Below are positions 612 to 12,710 of a stretch of DNA of 26,569 bases, one piece after another; within the stretch, counting starts at the first letter, position 1; each line of letters opens with the position of its first letter. This DNA comes from a virus. A program made the position numbers and the translations under genes. The stretch lies in IMG/VR virus record IMGVR_UViG_3300046790_000010, positions 1-26,569 of that record. One strand, written 5' to 3'. The notes beneath the pieces are model-generated. The model had not been told where the DNA came from. It did no database searches and was given only the letters and a program-made list of their open reading frames with translations.

Positions 612-646
612 CATTCTCCCCATTCAATCGGTTATGCCCAGTGATA

Positions 647-720
647 TGCGCCTAGTCAGATTCGAACTGACACTACGCAGATTTTAAGTCTGCTGCCTCT
701 GCCAGTTGGGCTATAGGCGC
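647..720 (-). tRNA. tRNA with UAA anticodon (Leu), short variable loop
   Basis: On the minus strand this folds as a full cloverleaf. The acceptor stem is GCGCCTA/TAGGCGC, the anticodon stem is GCAGA/TCTGC with loop CTTAAAA, and the T arm is GTCAG/CTGAC with loop TTCGAAT. The D arm contains a GG pair and a weak fourth base pair. The anticodon is UAA (684-686), which reads the leucine codon UUA. The base after the acceptor stem is A, as in leucine tRNAs, and no CCA is encoded. The variable loop is only five bases (GTAGT), whereas bacterial leucine tRNAs normally carry a long variable arm. It may charge poorly or differently from the anticodon's prediction. It lies within the leftward early cluster. 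Confidence 0.9.
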
Positions 721-733
721 ACAGGTGTAGTGA

Positions 734-1081: not shown

Positions 1082-3169
1082 TCAGCCTCGCGCTGCGATT
1101 TGCTTGTTTTTCTTCGAGCGATGCGCGTTGATGATAGCGTTACCCAGCTCCACGCCGATAGCGTTATCGTTCCACTGTTGAATCTCCGTCTTATTCATCG
1201 TGTTATGAAACTGAATGCGCTTACGCTCAATGATGGCGTCCAACTGCGCGTCGATAGCAGTAAGACCCTGCATGTGAGCATAGATAGCATTCACCGACGT
1301 AGCCGTGGAGCCGATACGCGCGCATCGGTCCTCACACTGTTGCTCCTTACCAGGATTCCACTGGCGTTCGTGCATGATAAGGTCTGAACACGTCTGAAGA
1401 TTCAGTCCCTCTCCAGCGGCTAGCTGTGATGCGACGATGATAGCGCGCGGCGCATTGTTGAACGCTACCTGAATATCGTAGCGAACCTTAGCATCCGTGC
1501 CCGCGTCAATCTTGTATACGGGAAACTGCTTCCCGTATTTCTCCAAGATAGACTCGTACAAAAATCCTTGCACCTCGACATGATGCGCGAATACGATGAG
1601 TTTCCTATCCGTGTCCTCTACGAACTCGTCGATGTATTCCAGCGTAGCAGGAATCTTCGCGATGCCCACCAACTGTCGCATCTTCGCCATCGCAGCGAGT
1701 ATGTGGATGCCGGATGCCTGCTGCCGGTTATCCTCAAACCACTTCATGAATTCATCTACTGCGATGTCATACTCGCGTTCCTGCGTTTCGTCCATCGTGA
1801 CATTGAGCTTCGTCCTATTCGTAGACGGCAGTTCAGGCATCACTACTGACCTTTCACGACGGATGATGATGTCCTTCGTGTATTCGCGGAAACGTGCGAT
1901 GTTGCGGATACCACCTTCGGTGAGTCGCGGGCCGACGTAGTATTGGTCTACCCACTGGCGCCTGAACGCTGCCTCGGACCCAAACTTGATAGGGTCCATC
2001 ATGTTGAGTGCTGGAAACAATTCACTCCCTCTGTTATTCCATGGCGTCCCTGACAGCGGGATAACCTTACGTCCCTTCACCACCTTACGCACCATTTGCG
2101 TGCGCGAGGAATCTACGTTCTTGATTTGCTGGCATTCGTCGAGCACTACGCACTTGATACCCACGCGGTCAAACTGCGTGATGTCGAACCCTGAGCGTAC
2201 TTCCTTGCCCTTGACCATACGAACTTTGGGCACCAGAATGTCATACCCGGCGATGTAGTTCTTCAGACCGGGTATGAGCCAGTCCTTCGACGTGTTGATA
2301 ATCTGCGGCACATGGTCATCTCCCATCCAGTTAATGATGAAATCTGACGTTTGCCACTTCGTACCATTCTTCACCAGCCAGAGCGTAGGATTGCATAGCT
2401 CAGGATGGTATTTGATGACTCCACCAGCCTGTATGGTCTTACCCAGGCCCATGTCATCGAAACATGCTACGCCGTGCGCGATGGACAGACCCTTTTCCAG
2501 AAACTTCATACCTTCTAGCTGAAATGGGTATGGCCGTTTGCGCCCACACTTCAGGCAGTTGTTCTTGTCCCATGTATGTTTGCAGTTAGGGTCGCCATAC
2601 GCTTGAAACTTGTGGAATGGCGTACCCTTAGGAATCTGCTTGATGAGCGTGTGACCACATTCCAGATAGATAAACTTCAAATCTGGCGTGTTGTCGTTCT
2701 CGCTCAGTATGGTCTTTTCGTCCTTCTGTACTGCTACCTTCCCGCAGTATTCACACTTATCCTGCAACCGAGTGATGTTATACTTCGGTGTCCGGATGGT
2801 ATGTTCCTCGAATGTCACTTCCACGTCGGCCCCTGAGCGTATGGCATCGATAATTTCTGGACTCAGGGAGAGATTCGAGCATGGCAGCGTGTTGTCGCAT
2901 CCTATCTCGCGTGCCTTAGCGGCCCATACTGCGTCGTGCCCGTGACCTGGACAGAGCGCGTGGGCTACTTCATGCCGAATGGTGTTAATCACATCGGGCG
3001 TCGGATGGATGTCGATATGATGCGCGGACAGGATAATGCACTTATCCTTATACGAGCATAGACCCAGAAAACGACTATCTGGATTCTGATTGAGCCTTAC
3101 AGCCCAATCCTCTAGCTTGTGCTTGTTGAGTTCTTCCCGCAGTATGCGGCTAGCTTCCTGTCGTGTCAT
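1082..3169 (-). CDS. SprT-like metalloprotease / SNF2 helicase fusion, 695 aa
   Basis: The N-terminal ~110 residues form a SprT-like zinc protease domain: HEVAH at 66-70 and H78 in PGHGHDAVW match the HExxH plus third-His pattern of the family. Next come cysteine pairs C139/C142 with C171/H173, and C196, C205, C208, likely zinc sites. A SNF2-type helicase follows: Walker A MGLGKT at 240-245, DECQ at 344-347 as motif II, LSGTPWNNR near 372, a GEGLNL segment near 586 as motif V, and QCEDRCARIG at 611-620 as motif VI. SNF2 proteins translocate on DNA; SprT/Spartan proteases cut proteins crosslinked to DNA. A role in clearing protein from phage DNA, or in recombination, is inference. The nearest AGGAG is 13 bases before the ATG, which is long. 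The catalytic residues appear intact. Confidence 0.85.
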   Translation of the reverse strand: MTRQEASRILREELNKHKLEDWAVRLNQNPDSRFLGLCSYKDKCIILSAHHIDIHPTPDVINTIRHEVAHALCPGHGHDAVWAAKAREIGCDNTLPCSNLSLSPEIIDAIRSGADVEVTFEEHTIRTPKYNITRLQDKCEYCGKVAVQKDEKTILSENDNTPDLKFIYLECGHTLIKQIPKGTPFHKFQAYGDPNCKHTWDKNNCLKCGRKRPYPFQLEGMKFLEKGLSIAHGVACFDDMGLGKTIQAGGVIKYHPELCNPTLWLVKNGTKWQTSDFIINWMGDDHVPQIINTSKDWLIPGLKNYIAGYDILVPKVRMVKGKEVRSGFDITQFDRVGIKCVVLDECQQIKNVDSSRTQMVRKVVKGRKVIPLSGTPWNNRGSELFPALNMMDPIKFGSEAAFRRQWVDQYYVGPRLTEGGIRNIARFREYTKDIIIRRERSVVMPELPSTNRTKLNVTMDETQEREYDIAVDEFMKWFEDNRQQASGIHILAAMAKMRQLVGIAKIPATLEYIDEFVEDTDRKLIVFAHHVEVQGFLYESILEKYGKQFPVYKIDAGTDAKVRYDIQVAFNNAPRAIIVASQLAAGEGLNLQTCSDLIMHERQWNPGKEQQCEDRCARIGSTATSVNAIYAHMQGLTAIDAQLDAIIERKRIQFHNTMNKTEIQQWNDNAIGVELGNAIINAHRSKKNKQIAARG

Positions 3170-5584: not shown

Positions 5585-5788
5585 CTAGTTACCCGACTGG
5601 CGACACAATCCGACTATGCGCCGTTCGTTGTCCCTGCGAGCGGCGTATCCCTGTCGCGCGGCTACTTCCATAGCGATAGCCAGTTCCACGAACGTGGACA
5701 ACGATACGCCCATGCGAGTAGCCGCCGCGGCTGCCTTTACCCACGTCGCCTGTCCGCCCTTGCTCACGTAGAGCGTTCGCGTAGCCAC
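5585..5788 (-). CDS. small ribbon-helix-helix-like protein, 67 aa
   Basis: The pattern is a short N-terminal strand (TRTLYV), a helix (about 14-26), the turn GVSLS, and a second helix (about 31-45). This fits the ribbon-helix-helix DNA-binding fold of CopG/Arc-type regulators, though no signature is strong enough to be sure. The tail is basic. The start is a GTG at 5788 overlapping the upstream stop as TAGTG, with GAGGG further up. It is the last gene before the terminator. If it is a regulator, the palindrome arrays in the two gene-free regions are natural candidate targets; that link is inference. Confidence 0.55.
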   Translation of the reverse strand: MATRTLYVSKGGQATWVKAAAAATRMGVSLSTFVELAIAMEVAARQGYAARRDNERRIVGLCRQSGN

Positions 5789-6590: not shown

Positions 6591-7025
6591 TTAGTCAGCC
6601 CATGCGATACCGAGCGCGGCGCTGGCCTTTGCGCGCGCTTCCGTTTCGCTTGCGCCTGCCGACTTGAAAATCTTCGTCATCTCGCGAAGCTTCAATTGGT
6701 CGTCCGTTTCGAGCGTCGGCTTCTTGATGCCCGCGAGGTTCAGCGCCTGAAGCATTCCCTTCTGGCGAGCATTCGCTTTTTCCTGCGCGTTGACGACATC
6801 CACGATATCGGCTTTCGACGGCCACTTGCCCGCCGTCTCTACGGCATCCGGCGTCAGAAACTTCCATGCGCGAGCGTAGTAGGTGAGTGGCGTTTCCAAC
6901 TTCTGACCGTAGGCGGACTCCATGACGCCGGAAAACTCGTATTCCTCGACGCCAGCCGGAAGTGGCGTAGCGGGTGCGACTGGCGTAGCGGTTTCGTTCG
7001 TTTCGGTCGTGTTCTGTTCGCTCAT
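6591..7025 (-). CDS. hypothetical early protein, 144 aa
   Basis: The first ~25 residues are disordered (Thr/Glu/Pro-rich). The middle (about 30-70) is mixed alpha/beta with aromatic residues, and the rest is helical and charged (IVDVVNAQEKANARQKGML). No family is recognised. It is the first gene of the second leftward cluster and borders the divergent control region, a typical position for a highly expressed early protein. GGAG lies about 10 bases before the ATG. Two longer frames overlap it, one on each strand, but both lack its sensible start and composition. Confidence 0.7.
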   Translation of the reverse strand: MSEQNTTETNETATPVAPATPLPAGVEEYEFSGVMESAYGQKLETPLTYYARAWKFLTPDAVETAGKWPSKADIVDVVNAQEKANARQKGMLQALNLAGIKKPTLETDDQLKLREMTKIFKSAGASETEARAKASAALGIAWAD

Positions 7026-7483
7026 GTTCTGTTCTGCTCCATGTATCGGGCTGACTCCATGCCAGCGCCGAACCTTTACGCCGCGCGATTCTGTCCGCTA
7101 GCGGCAAACTGGCCTATCCGTTAGGGGTCTAGGTTGTGGTGTCTCACGACAGCGCCTAAACGCTTAAAGGGAATCGGCACCTAACAGTGTCGCATGGCTG
7201 TCAATAGCGCGTGGAAACGGGCCGCCCAGTCGCTCACTGGTGAGCATTTCGTGCGGTTTCGGGTGCGAGGTTGGCGGCCTGTCTGACCGGCTGTGAGGCG
7301 ATTTGCGGGGTTTTCTCCCGGTGTCCGGCTGTGTGGCCGGTCAGCTAGTCCGACCCCGTAGGCGAGCGCGTAGCCAGTCGCCTATCAGCCAGGTATCGAG
7401 TAGGCGCCTATCAGCGGAGAACGGCTAGCAGACATCCGGGCATTACGTCAATTTGCGTTATGGGCACCGGCTGTGCTAGCGCC
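7026..7483. other. gene-free left part of the divergent control region
   Basis: No gene is supported. A perfect 9-bp inverted repeat CTGACCGGC/GCCGGTCAG (7283-7291 and 7336-7344) encloses a G+C-rich loop with a CCGGC/GCCGG inner hairpin. CGCCTATCAGC occurs twice (7379-7389, 7405-7415). Between and overlapping them is the inverse of GATACCTGGCTGAT (7384-7397), also at 6281-6294 and, as a 13-mer, at 5472-5484. CATTACGTC at 7441 is repeated near 7665. The leader of the leftward gene at 7025 must arise here, but no promoter is clear. Confidence 0.5.
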
Positions 7484-7733
7484 GTGGTCTGACCACTTAC
7501 CATGCGGGCTGTGCGAGTGGTCATACCACTTGCTTTGTCAAGTGACCGCGTGGTCTTACCACTTGCTTGTCAAGTTAATTAGTGGTCATACCACTTGGAC
7601 GCGCCCTGACATTTGCGCGCTTGTCAAGTTTTTATTTTCGACGTTTTTCCTAGGGATTTCGCACATTACGTCGCTTCACGTAGCCAAGTGGTCATACCAC
7701 TGGGGGGTACACCCATGAAAGTGGTCATACCAC
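7484..7733. promoter_or_regulatory. array of six phased palindromes with interleaved boxes
   Basis: GTGGTCATACCAC occurs at 7517, 7582, 7688 and 7721, with variants GTGGTCTGACCAC at 7484 and GTGGTCTTACCAC at 7550. Most are followed by TTG. Start-to-start distances are 33, 33, 32, 106 and 33 bp, about three DNA turns apart. A second element, CTTGTCAAG, lies at 7566-7574 and 7620-7628, with TTTGTCAAG at 7534-7542. On the minus strand these boxes read TTGACA. The layout suggests cooperative binding of a dimeric protein, either an operator array or replication iterons. No CRISPR features fit. Confidence 0.8.
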
Positions 7734-7754
7734 TTGCACCTCGGTTCGGGCTGC

Positions 7755-7862
7755 CTACAATCAAATGTTGGTCGGAAAATATAGTAGGAATATATAATAT
7801 GATAAGCTACAATCAAAAGTGTCAGGGAAAAGATAGTACGAATAGTTAGTATATAAAATTAG
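7755..7862. repeat. A+T-rich tandem repeat, unit about 52 bp
   Basis: Two imperfect direct copies begin CTACAATCAAA at 7755 and 7807. Both continue with a GGAAAA, TAGTA, GAATA and TATA order of blocks, the second copy being slightly longer. The sequence is much richer in A+T than its surroundings and directly follows the palindrome array. This could be an unwinding element of an origin or a pair of promoters; TTGGTC-17-TATATA is present in the first copy (7768-7796). Confidence 0.55.
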
Positions 7863-7958
7863 GGTCCCATACTAAGATACTATACTATAGGAAAGAGTCT
7901 CATACCTTGACCTATGTCGGTAGCTGCAACTCCCTCAGAATCAATGGGTTAGGTGGGC

Positions 7959-7987
7959 TTGACAAACGGGATCGACCGACCTAGACT
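7959..7987 (+). promoter_or_regulatory. rightward sigma70-type promoter, probably leaderless
   Basis: TTGACA (7959-7964) and TAGACT (7982-7987) are separated by 17 bp, identical in both hexamers and spacing to the leftward promoter at 4937-4965. The -10 ends five bases before the ATG of the HNH gene at 7993, so transcription would begin at or next to the start codon. No Shine-Dalgarno sequence is visible, in keeping with a leaderless mRNA. Confidence 0.6.
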
Positions 7988-7992
7988 AGCTC

Positions 7993-8364
7993 ATGACCAA
8001 AGCCGAACTAGGTAAGATGTTAGGAGTTAAGTTAGTTGAAGAACCCATAAAGAAATGTTGGTTCATACGAGACAGAGATTGGTCGAACTATACTACTATA
8101 AAGGGACTAGCAGCACATAGAGTCTCATACAGTGCAGCAATAGGTCCACTTAAGGTAGGAATGGAAATCTGTCATAGATGTGATAGAAAAGGATGTATCA
8201 ATCCTAAACATCTATTTCAGGGTACACATTCCGATAACATACAAGACGCGCGTAAGAAACATAGGATATTTAATATTAGAGTAGTACCTAAACTACATAA
8301 CATAACTAAAGAAGAACGTGATTGGGCTAGAATGAAACATCTTCGTAGATTGGTTGGGAGTTAG
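7993..8364 (+). CDS. HNH endonuclease, 123 aa
   Basis: The core runs from AAHRVSY (H42) through EICHRCDRKGCINPKHLF to a GTHSDNIQDA segment. H61 and H73, N70 and N82, and cysteines 60, 63 and 68 match the HNH_3-type pattern found in phage homing and free-standing nicking enzymes. The N-terminal 40 residues may bind DNA. It is the first rightward gene, directly before the probable TerS. In several phages an HNH enzyme next to terminase takes part in DNA packaging; alternatively it is a selfish homing enzyme. The gene is A+T-rich compared with the early genes, which may mark transfer. It has no ribosome binding site. Confidence 0.85.
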   Translation: MTKAELGKMLGVKLVEEPIKKCWFIRDRDWSNYTTIKGLAAHRVSYSAAIGPLKVGMEICHRCDRKGCINPKHLFQGTHSDNIQDARKKHRIFNIRVVPKLHNITKEERDWARMKHLRRLVGS

Positions 8365-8367
8365 AGT

Positions 8368-8994
8368 ATGCCCATAGGATTAGTTTCAGATGATGATTTC
8401 TTACGTGAACTGAGCAGGACGGTACCTGGTGGTAAGATTACTCCGGTAGTTCCTCCTACTGATACACTTACTGAAGTGGTGGATGCCCCTACAATTACGA
8501 GGGATGCAGTAGTAGAGGACACGCACTCTGCTGGACGTAACAAGGGTGACACGAACGTACCCGAGTCATTACGGAAAATCATTGGTGAGGAAGCAGTCAT
8601 TCATGGCAGGGCTTCCGCACTTCAGTTGGCGAAGGATGTAGGTGTATCCCCCTCATCCGTGAGTGCGTATGCGAAAGGTGCAACGAGCACCGCGAGCATC
8701 AAGTCCCCCGTCAAGTCGATTCTGACACACATCAACAAGTCGCGTGTACGTGCGGTGAAGCGCGCGTCCTCTACTCTGAACGCTGCGCTTGGAGCCATCA
8801 CGCAGGACAAGTTGGACTATGCTGATGTGAAGGATCTATCGACTATCGCTAAGGATATGTCGGTGATCATTAAGAATCTCGAACCCCCACCAGATAAACC
8901 AGGTGAAGGTGAGACTAAGGCGCCAGCTTTCGTAATCTTCGCTCCACAATTCAGGAGAGAAGAACAGTTCGAGACCATCACAGTTCAGGAGTAG
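8368..8994 (+). CDS. terS: probable terminase small subunit, 208 aa
   Basis: A helix-turn-helix is seen at about 84-104 (ALQLAKDVGVSPSSVSAYAKG region), followed by long helices at about 110-175 suitable for oligomerisation and a hydrophobic C-terminal tail (APAFVIFAPQF) like the part that contacts the large subunit. The first 65 residues look disordered. Small terminases recognise phage DNA and hand it to TerL; the length and domain order fit. TerL lies about 2.1 kb downstream, with five unusual genes between, so the call rests on the helix-turn-helix and cluster position. GGGAG lies upstream of the ATG. Confidence 0.65.
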   Translation: MPIGLVSDDDFLRELSRTVPGGKITPVVPPTDTLTEVVDAPTITRDAVVEDTHSAGRNKGDTNVPESLRKIIGEEAVIHGRASALQLAKDVGVSPSSVSAYAKGATSTASIKSPVKSILTHINKSRVRAVKRASSTLNAALGAITQDKLDYADVKDLSTIAKDMSVIIKNLEPPPDKPGEGETKAPAFVIFAPQFRREEQFETITVQE

Positions 8995-10690: not shown

Positions 10691-11080
10691 ATGCTGATAA
10701 TGTGCAAAGGTCTACCCGCGTCTGGTAAAAGTACGTGGGCGCTCGCACAACCCAACTGTGTAGTGATTAGTTCAGATGACATTCGAGTGCGCATGGGCGG
10801 CTTCAAACCAGAGCTAGAACATCTGGTTAAGATTGAGAAGTTAGCTCAGATTAGAAACGCACTACGTAAGGGACAGAATGTCATCTCGGATGATCCGAAC
10901 TACGGCAAGTCAATCGAGAAAGAACTACGCGGACTTGCTCGTAGATTCGGTACTGAGTTTCAGATCCATGTATTCGACACTCCAATAGAGGAATGTATTA
11001 GACGTGATGCACTCCGTCTTAAACATATCGGAGCGGATGCGATACGAAAGTATTTGAAGTATGGCTCGCAATCAGAATGA
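10691..11080 (+). CDS. polynucleotide-kinase-like P-loop kinase, 129 aa
   Basis: Walker A is GLPASGKST (7-15). ISSDDIR (26-32) matches the substrate-binding Asp/Arg of the T4 polynucleotide kinase family. SDDPN (66-70) and the lid ECIRRDALR (101-109) follow. The protein ends where the phosphatase domain of T4 Pnk would begin, so it is kinase-only. It would add phosphate to a 5' hydroxyl on nucleic acid, or to a small molecule, since the fold is shared by several kinases. It overlaps the start of the large terminase by 20 bp. No clear ribosome binding site is seen. A role in repairing broken ends or tRNA is inference. Confidence 0.75.
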   Translation: MLIMCKGLPASGKSTWALAQPNCVVISSDDIRVRMGGFKPELEHLVKIEKLAQIRNALRKGQNVISDDPNYGKSIEKELRGLARRFGTEFQIHVFDTPIEECIRRDALRLKHIGADAIRKYLKYGSQSE

Positions 11081-12710
11081 ATGGAAACCCGAACCTAAGC
11101 AGGAGCTATTCCTATCCATTCCTACCTCCATTAAGGAAGCATTCTATGGTGGGGGTGCAGGTTCAGGTAAGTCTGATGTACTTCTTCTTTATGGTATCGT
11201 ACACAGATGGCATGAACACCCCAAGTTCAAACAGGTGTTTATGCGGCGTTCTTTCCCTGAACTGAGGAACGAGATCATACCGAGAAGTCGCGAACTATAC
11301 AGGAGATTCGGAGCTACATTAAATAAAACTGAGATGTGCTGGACGTTCCCACGAGAAGATCAGTATGGAACAGGTACATCAACTAAGACAGGATTCACTA
11401 ACTCGGGTTCGATGATCTTTCTCGGACACTGTGAGAATGAAGATGATGTGCACAAATACGATTCAATGCAGATTAACTTGTTCACACCTGACGAGCTTAC
11501 GAGCTTTACAGAGTGGATCTATCTCTACATCGGATTTCAACGAGTTCGCTCACCTGTGCCAGAACTGCCTGCAATTATCCGAGCAGCAGGGATGCCAGGC
11601 GGCATTGGACATACGTGGACGTATAAGCGGTTTATTAAACCAGCTCCGAGTGGCGGAAAACTTATCGTCGGACGTGGTGGAAACAAGCGAATCTACATCC
11701 ACTCCACACTAGAAGATAATAAGCACATCGACCCTACGTATCGCCAGTCGCTACAGGGCATCACAATCGATGCTGAGCGTAAGGCGAAGTTACATGGCGA
11801 TTGGGAAGCGTATCAGGGCCAGGTCTTTGACGAGTTCAGAGATCATAAGTTTGAGGATGAGCCAGCCAACGCAATTCATGTAGTACCGCACTTCGAGATT
11901 CCGAAATGGTGGCCTAAGATTGTAGTAGGCGACTGGGGTTTCAGGGCGATGACGTGGATTGGGTATGGCGCCATCTCTCCCACGCGTAGATTATACATCT
12001 ATCGCGAGCAATGTTGGACTAAAACGAAGATAGCGGAGTGGGCACCTCATGTTAAAGCGTACATCGATAAGGAAAATCCGCGTCTTGTACGTTTCTGCAA
12101 ATCCGCGGGGCAGGATCGTGGGCAGGAGCATACGATCCAGCAGCAAATTGAGGATGAACTCAAGGTACCGGTAGAGTTATCTAATAACACCCCCGGATCG
12201 CGTGTGGCGGGTAAGATTCTGATTCACGAATATCTAAGATGGCAGCCCAAATTCATCAATCAGTTGGAGCTACCTGAATACGATGAGGAATACGCGATGT
12301 GGATTATGCGAAATAGGGGGATGGATGAATACAAAGCATACATGAATTCATTCCTCCCACAAGAGGAGGAGACTAATATCCCCAAATTACAGATACTAGA
12401 GGGCGCGTGTCCCATGCTGATTGAAGCTATTAAGGCTTGTTCATACGATAAGCCGAAGAATAACAAAGTCGTCGAAGATATCATGGAATTCGAGGGAGAT
12501 GATCCCATCGATGGACTCAGATATCTGGTAGATGCGGCTGAAGGATTCTTCGATGAGTCGAATGAGGAATTTAAGAAGATACAGAAGCAAGAAATTCTGG
12601 TTCAGAAGCTAGCGGCTACTAACGATTGGACCGCGTACTATAGAAATTCCGCGAAACTCGAAGAGGGAACTGAAGATACCATCAAGCCGGTGGGCCGCTA
12701 TCGTCATTAG
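11061..12710 (+). CDS. terL: terminase large subunit, 549 aa
   Basis: The ATPase has Walker A GGGAGSGKSD (30-39), a Walker B region INLFTPDEL (138-146) and a likely coupling segment IYIHSTLED. The nuclease domain starts at about 285 with VVGDWGF (D291 likely metal-binding) and ends with DPIDGLRYLVDA (481-492), whose acidic residues complete the site. The length is typical of TerL. It cuts concatemers and drives DNA into the prohead through the portal. Its start codon is inside the kinase gene. All core motifs appear intact. The packaging type (cos, pac or direct repeat) cannot be read from the protein. Confidence 0.95.
   Translation: MARNQNEWKPEPKQELFLSIPTSIKEAFYGGGAGSGKSDVLLLYGIVHRWHEHPKFKQVFMRRSFPELRNEIIPRSRELYRRFGATLNKTEMCWTFPREDQYGTGTSTKTGFTNSGSMIFLGHCENEDDVHKYDSMQINLFTPDELTSFTEWIYLYIGFQRVRSPVPELPAIIRAAGMPGGIGHTWTYKRFIKPAPSGGKLIVGRGGNKRIYIHSTLEDNKHIDPTYRQSLQGITIDAERKAKLHGDWEAYQGQVFDEFRDHKFEDEPANAIHVVPHFEIPKWWPKIVVGDWGFRAMTWIGYGAISPTRRLYIYREQCWTKTKIAEWAPHVKAYIDKENPRLVRFCKSAGQDRGQEHTIQQQIEDELKVPVELSNNTPGSRVAGKILIHEYLRWQPKFINQLELPEYDEEYAMWIMRNRGMDEYKAYMNSFLPQEEETNIPKLQILEGACPMLIEAIKACSYDKPKNNKVVEDIMEFEGDDPIDGLRYLVDAAEGFFDESNEEFKKIQKQEILVQKLAATNDWTAYYRNSAKLEEGTEDTIKPVGRYRH

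Follow-up and report, generated by a model that had tools for sequence, protein, structure and literature searches.

Cluster A mycobacteriophages carry many copies of a short regulatory site, the stoperator, which is asymmetric and dispersed through the phage genome. Sites for host regulators are also known in phages. In several lineages of Alphaproteobacteria phages, those for the host CtrA protein form clusters in intergenic regions and have been associated with "lytic deferment" (PMC9437464), and the host LexA protein acts at the lysogenic promoter P1 of phage GIL01 (PMC4551915). In bacteria, operators of the FadR subfamily of GntR regulators have the consensus TKGT/ACMA, with three nucleotides between GT and AC (PMC4494728).

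We analyzed an array of palindromes in 26.6 kb of DNA from an uncultured soil phage (the whole stretch is termed the window), a fragment of an IMG/VR virus record that lacks part of the phage's genome. The array sites form palindromes within a single region, and in both respects they differ from the stoperators. They share with operators of the FadR, PdhR, LldR and GlcC type the odd palindrome TGGT-N3-ACCA, which is often paired in bacteria. However, the array has as many as six sites, most of them with a 33-bp spacing, compared to 21–25 bp for most bacterial pairs, and it adds a ACCACTTG extension and a CAT centre. Furthermore, the bacterial pairs adjoin genes for FadR-like GntR proteins, whereas the phage carrying the array has no GntR gene. 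The CtrA clusters resemble the array in that dense host-regulator-like sites are found in one large intergenic region, were apparently acquired in several lineages and have no regulator gene in the phage (PMC9437464), but they belong to a different class of regulator. In GIL01, host repressor sites are likewise located in a phage promoter, but these are LexA boxes, a helper protein (gp7) is present, and the phage is known to be temperate (PMC4551915). Together the CtrA and LexA cases provide a published precedent for reading the array as a target of a host factor. We tentatively favor, at slightly less than an even chance, that the array would be a multi-site operator for a dimer of FadR/GntR specificity, most likely encoded by the host, that governs two divergent operons.

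Organization of the divergent control region

The genes to the left of approximately position 7025 are oriented leftward and include an SNF2-type helicase (1082-3169) and small genes of no assigned function. The genes to the right of 7993 are oriented rightward and encode an HNH endonuclease, an HTH protein, the large terminase and structural proteins. The phage also carries a tRNA-Leu (TAA) gene (646-721, minus strand). All six palindromes are located in the 970-bp gap between the two gene groups, from 7025 to 7993 (Table 1).

The initial annotation placed GTGGTCNNACCAC at 7484, 7517, 7550, 7582, 7688, and 7721, with gaps of 33, 33, 32, 106, and 33 bp, and every one of these positions and gaps was recovered as an exact match. 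No other exact match was found in the window, and all six fall within a 250-bp part of the divergent intergenic region. When up to two mismatches were allowed, 20 matches were found in the window against 6.4 expected, and none of 100 shuffles gave as many. While the sites are real, the frame first given to them was slightly off: the symmetric and functional unit is the odd palindrome AGTGGT-N3-ACCACT, extended to the right as ACCACTTG (TTG). The three central nucleotides are CAT in four sites and CTT and CTG in one site each. The suggestion that the sites are in helical phase was also borne out (R=0.97 at 10.5 bp in the window; p ~0.0008 by randomised placement).

Table 1. Features of the divergent control region and adjoining genes in the window
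Feature	Position	Strand	Remarks
First leftward-operon gene	6591..7025	-	144 aa, conserved family
Putative operator site 1	7483..7497	+	CGTGGTCTGACCACT
Putative operator site 2	7516..7530	+	AGTGGTCATACCACT
First TTGTCAAG element	7535..7542	-	CTTGACAA on the minus strand, -35-like
Putative operator site 3	7549..7563	+	CGTGGTCTTACCACT
Second TTGTCAAG element	7567..7574	-	
Putative operator site 4	7581..7595	+	AGTGGTCATACCACT
Third TTGTCAAG element	7621..7628	-	
Putative operator site 5	7687..7701	+	AGTGGTCATACCACT; left of the conserved GGGTACACCC core
GGGTACACCC core	7705..7714	.	GGGTATACCC palindrome in many relatives
Putative operator site 6	7720..7734	+	AGTGGTCATACCACT; right of the conserved GGGTACACCC core
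AT-rich stretch	7755..7852	.	Two 46-nt imperfect direct repeats, 76% (7755-7800, 7807-7852)
GGGTCCCATA	7862..7871	+	Conserved in the group
AGAGTCTCATA	7894..7904	+	Conserved in the group
Sigma70-type promoter of rightward operon	7959..7987	+	TTGACA-17-TAGACT; equivalent in many relatives
HNH endonuclease, first rightward gene	7993..8364	+	
HTH protein, probable small terminase subunit	8368..8994	+	HTH near-invariant across repeat types
Terminase large subunit	11061..12710	+	Anchor for finding relatives

Between the palindromes we identified three TTGTCAAG elements that had been overlooked initially. Their spacings are 32 and 54, compared to 32 and 55 for the TGTCAA elements of L025, a relative with another palindrome. 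The TTGTCAAG elements were rejected as leftward sigma70 promoters since no matching -10 hexamer was found in the window. No clear leftward promoter overlapping the sites was found in the window either, and which promoter the array would control is therefore something that we infer.

The GGGTATACCC/GGGTACACCC core, followed by NTG, was found to be the most conserved control-region element across the group. In relative L072 this core lies inside the spacer of a TTGACA-18-TATAAT promoter, and in L020 a minus-strand TTGACA-18-TATGAC combination begins at one operator and ends within another. The skeleton of the region, common to all relatives, combines the core and a GGGGGCTTG-type element with AT-rich DNA and then with GGGTCCCATA and AGAGTCTCATA; in many relatives a sigma70-type promoter follows ahead of the rightward genes.

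Conservation of the sites among related and unrelated phages

At least 187 relatives were found in IMG/VR by their terminase. The longest among 80 of these are contigs of 44–48 kb, and short matching ends suggest that several of the contigs are near-complete. In a DNA search of a phage collection no cultured relative was matched. The window terminase gave mostly 25–30% identical matches to cultured phages, and the probable major head (capsid) protein gave no match among them. When the capsid protein was used in a search for hosts, one weak match (26%) was obtained in Acidobacteriota and none in Actinobacteriota.

Whether related phages would share the motif and its spacing had been proposed as a check on the array, and the outcome was mixed. 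The array was found at the matching spot in the closest relatives L020, L008, and L012 (the whole contig of the latter is G001), in L087, whose terminase is 70% identical, and in G002, a far more distant phage at 36% terminase identity. Most other relatives are without it, and several have other repeats at that position. The gaps in the other array-bearing phages are 20-31-105-42, 33-132, 26-33, 65-95-44, and 42-18-34-64. The spacing thus differs from phage to phage yet keeps some helical phase (10.5 bp, p ~0.035, in a test that is not fully independent because the phages share ancestry). The exact sites span approximately 210 bp of 46.3 kb in G001 and approximately 170 bp of 47.6 kb in G002. 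In G000, G001, and G002 no exact site was found outside the control region, and near-matches with up to two mismatches outside the array numbered only three to four per genome.

We collected 26 sites from six phages, allowing up to three mismatches. TGGT-N3-ACCA was invariant in all of them. The 13 deviations were limited to the outer positions of the flanks, and the left arm accounts for 12 of them. Each of the 13 breaks pairing; compensatory changes numbered zero. At the level of sequence this variation is the signature of protein-DNA recognition with a strong right half-site. According to the initial annotation, the motif belonged to no known phage operator set. This is half right only: while no phage operator set of this kind was found in the literature searched, the core TGGT-N3-ACCA is the consensus of the FadR/GntR subfamily (PMC4494728), and all 26 phage sites have the TKGT-N3-ACMA palindrome.

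At the array position, L015, L025, L042, and L072 have repeated near-palindromes of other sequence at a level above that of shuffles. In the control region of L072 (G018 6605-8412, terminase oriented +), TTTGGATATTGAC is present ten times in two clusters, with many copies ending in TTGACA. The same control region of L042 (1-140) contains GCAGAGTACTTTA seven times with a spacing of approximately 17 bp. A swapped palindrome in every relative was rejected as a general rule, since only the GTGGT group and G018 showed strong arrays in a strict palindrome test.

Sites of the same class were also found in unrelated phages. In phage G025 (83.5 kb) a divergent gap contains two sites at a distance of 48 bp, the terminase of G026 is preceded by four TGTGGT-N3-ACCACA sites, and in L179-L181 the same operator class adjoins TTGACA. 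As for CtrA, the sites are concentrated in one intergenic region across several unrelated phage lineages.

Candidate regulators and alternative readings of the array

The GntR domain PF00392 was absent from 26 phage records including the array-bearing phages, while it was detected in 14 of 14 control genomes, and an HMM built from host GntR proteins gave no match in the phages (a positive control was run). The unrelated phages G025, G026, and L179-L181 were likewise without GntR. A cognate GntR gene was accordingly not found in the same genome as the array; a host gene could serve. In the complete relative G001, of which 40 proteins were scanned, the matches listed, which cover the 25 families with most matches, included PolA, a primase-like protein, SNF2, a nuclease and terminase, and among them were no integrase, no repressor and no HTH beyond that of the small terminase. 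Phage immunity of the temperate type, with a phage repressor and integration or partition genes, was thus not evident from this relative.

No gene family confined to and common to the array-bearing phages was found. A gene co-varying with the array was also sought, and none was found; the array-adjoining proteins of L087 were not closer to those of the array-bearing phages. The small terminase was rejected as the binder since its HTH is near-invariant whatever repeat type the phage carries. The product of the first leftward gene (6591-7025, minus) belongs to a fast-diverging but conserved family, of which 36 members were aligned. It gave a confident AF2 model (pLDDT 88 but pTM 0.48), and was rejected as a known DNA-binding fold, with no match in PDB/BFVD at E <0.001. 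A small possible ribbon-helix-helix protein is encoded at 5585-5788 (minus), and a similar short ORF is located near the array in G002. As regulators such proteins were rejected, since the candidates in the window and G002 are weak and their relative in G013 occurs without an array.

These searches bear on the possibility that, as in an immunity region, the regulator of the array is encoded by the phage, be it a repressor or an activator, and represents an undescribed family, with repeats that differ between phages because specificity has diversified. The different near-palindromes at the array position in other relatives would fit this, as would the many small orphan genes of the left arm, which include the weak ribbon-helix-helix-like ORFs. 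However, no gene shared by the array-bearing phages is exclusive to them, the terminase HTH is unchanged across repeat types, the matches listed for G001 hold no additional regulator, and the same operator is present in unrelated phages; we regard such a regulator as unlikely, although well worth keeping in mind. Should it be phage-encoded after all, its family would be one that escapes current models. Replication iterons were also suggested in the initial annotation; a phage initiator would then bind the array as part of an origin, and the AT-rich DNA at 7755-7890 could serve as unwinding element. The sites are clustered next to an AT-rich block, have helical spacing, and lie near a change in the sign of the GC skew, but divergent transcription explains the skew equally well. 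Moreover, no initiator family was recognised among the matches listed, and the number, type and spacing of the repeats vary freely while SNF2 helicase, PolA and primase are conserved. With palindromic sites, spacing that changes from phage to phage and no cognate initiator found, iterons appear improbable, and both iterons and stoperators are less likely readings of the array.

The array might also be a decoy that frees host genes by titrating a GntR repressor of the host, instead of acting on the phage's own promoters. Such a decoy would agree with three to six strong sites per genome without a cognate gene and with their variable position relative to promoter hexamers. However, the divergent control region is the only place where the sites are found, and there they lie on both sides of a conserved, promoter-associated core, which makes a decoy very improbable. 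Transcribed RNA hairpins or terminators are the reading to which we give least credence. GTGGTNNNACCAC is able to form a 5-bp stem with a triloop and one site scores as terminator-like, but terminator-like sites are at shuffle level, and all changes among the 26 sites break pairs while the GT/AC core is constant. The lack of compensatory changes led us to reject this reading and, together with the invariant core, argues for protein recognition of DNA.

The multi-site operator between early and late genes, which was among the original suggestions, is on the other hand well supported by the conserved position, the invariant core, the helical phase and the lack of compensatory pairing. In this explanation the AGTGGT-N3-ACCACT sites would be occupied by dimers that lie roughly on one face of the helix, presumably bind cooperatively, and govern transcription out of the gap, i.e., of the leftward replication operon versus the rightward packaging and structural operon. 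Repression is more likely than activation as the direction of control. The regulator is more likely encoded by the host than by the phage, and the phage would then read a host regulator, plausibly a sensor of a small metabolite. The identity of the protein, its host origin and the direction of control are what we infer here; a host factor is the more economical reading because the phages have no GntR gene and no array-linked gene, and because sites of the same class are present in unrelated phages.

Sites of the same class in bacterial genomes

Bacterial genomes were scanned for pairs of GTGGT-N3-ACCAC using the motif alone and no gene information. Among the matches listed, a FadR-like GntR gene started within 400 bp of the site pair at 55 of 80 loci, a descriptive figure since these matches are mostly from related Actinobacteria and many of the loci are orthologous and not independent cases. 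The gene beside the site pair of locus L187 encodes GntR and FCD domains. The exact 15-mer AGTGGTCATACCACT was not enriched in Acidobacteriota (0 of 277 genomes), in the phylum of Aureimonas (2 of 279) or in Actinobacteriota (0 of 276). A common regulon of a host from these phyla, with exact sites, would have been expected to show such enrichment. The result argues against a common exact-sequence operator in those three phyla; the test covers the exact sequence there, and degenerate sites or another phylum are still compatible with it.

It is conceivable, but rather doubtful, that a large group of uncultured soil phages, and unrelated phages as well, independently came to have FadR-type arrays in the main control region, by which a host metabolic regulator would time their operons. 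To our knowledge there are very few cases in which a host regulator is given control of the main promoter region of an apparently lytic phage. If the array is indeed read by a host FadR-type protein, the phage would have a sensor of host metabolism, and other such phages could be sought directly by the motif sequence.

The genome of Cytophaga aurantiaca contains six AGTGGTNNNACCACT sites, compared to none for the reversed control, and AGTGGTCTGACCACT sites flank an ABC/MacB-type efflux operon in this species (L249 2420-3352). The Cytophaga aurantiaca sites probably represent a Bacteroidota regulon of this motif class.
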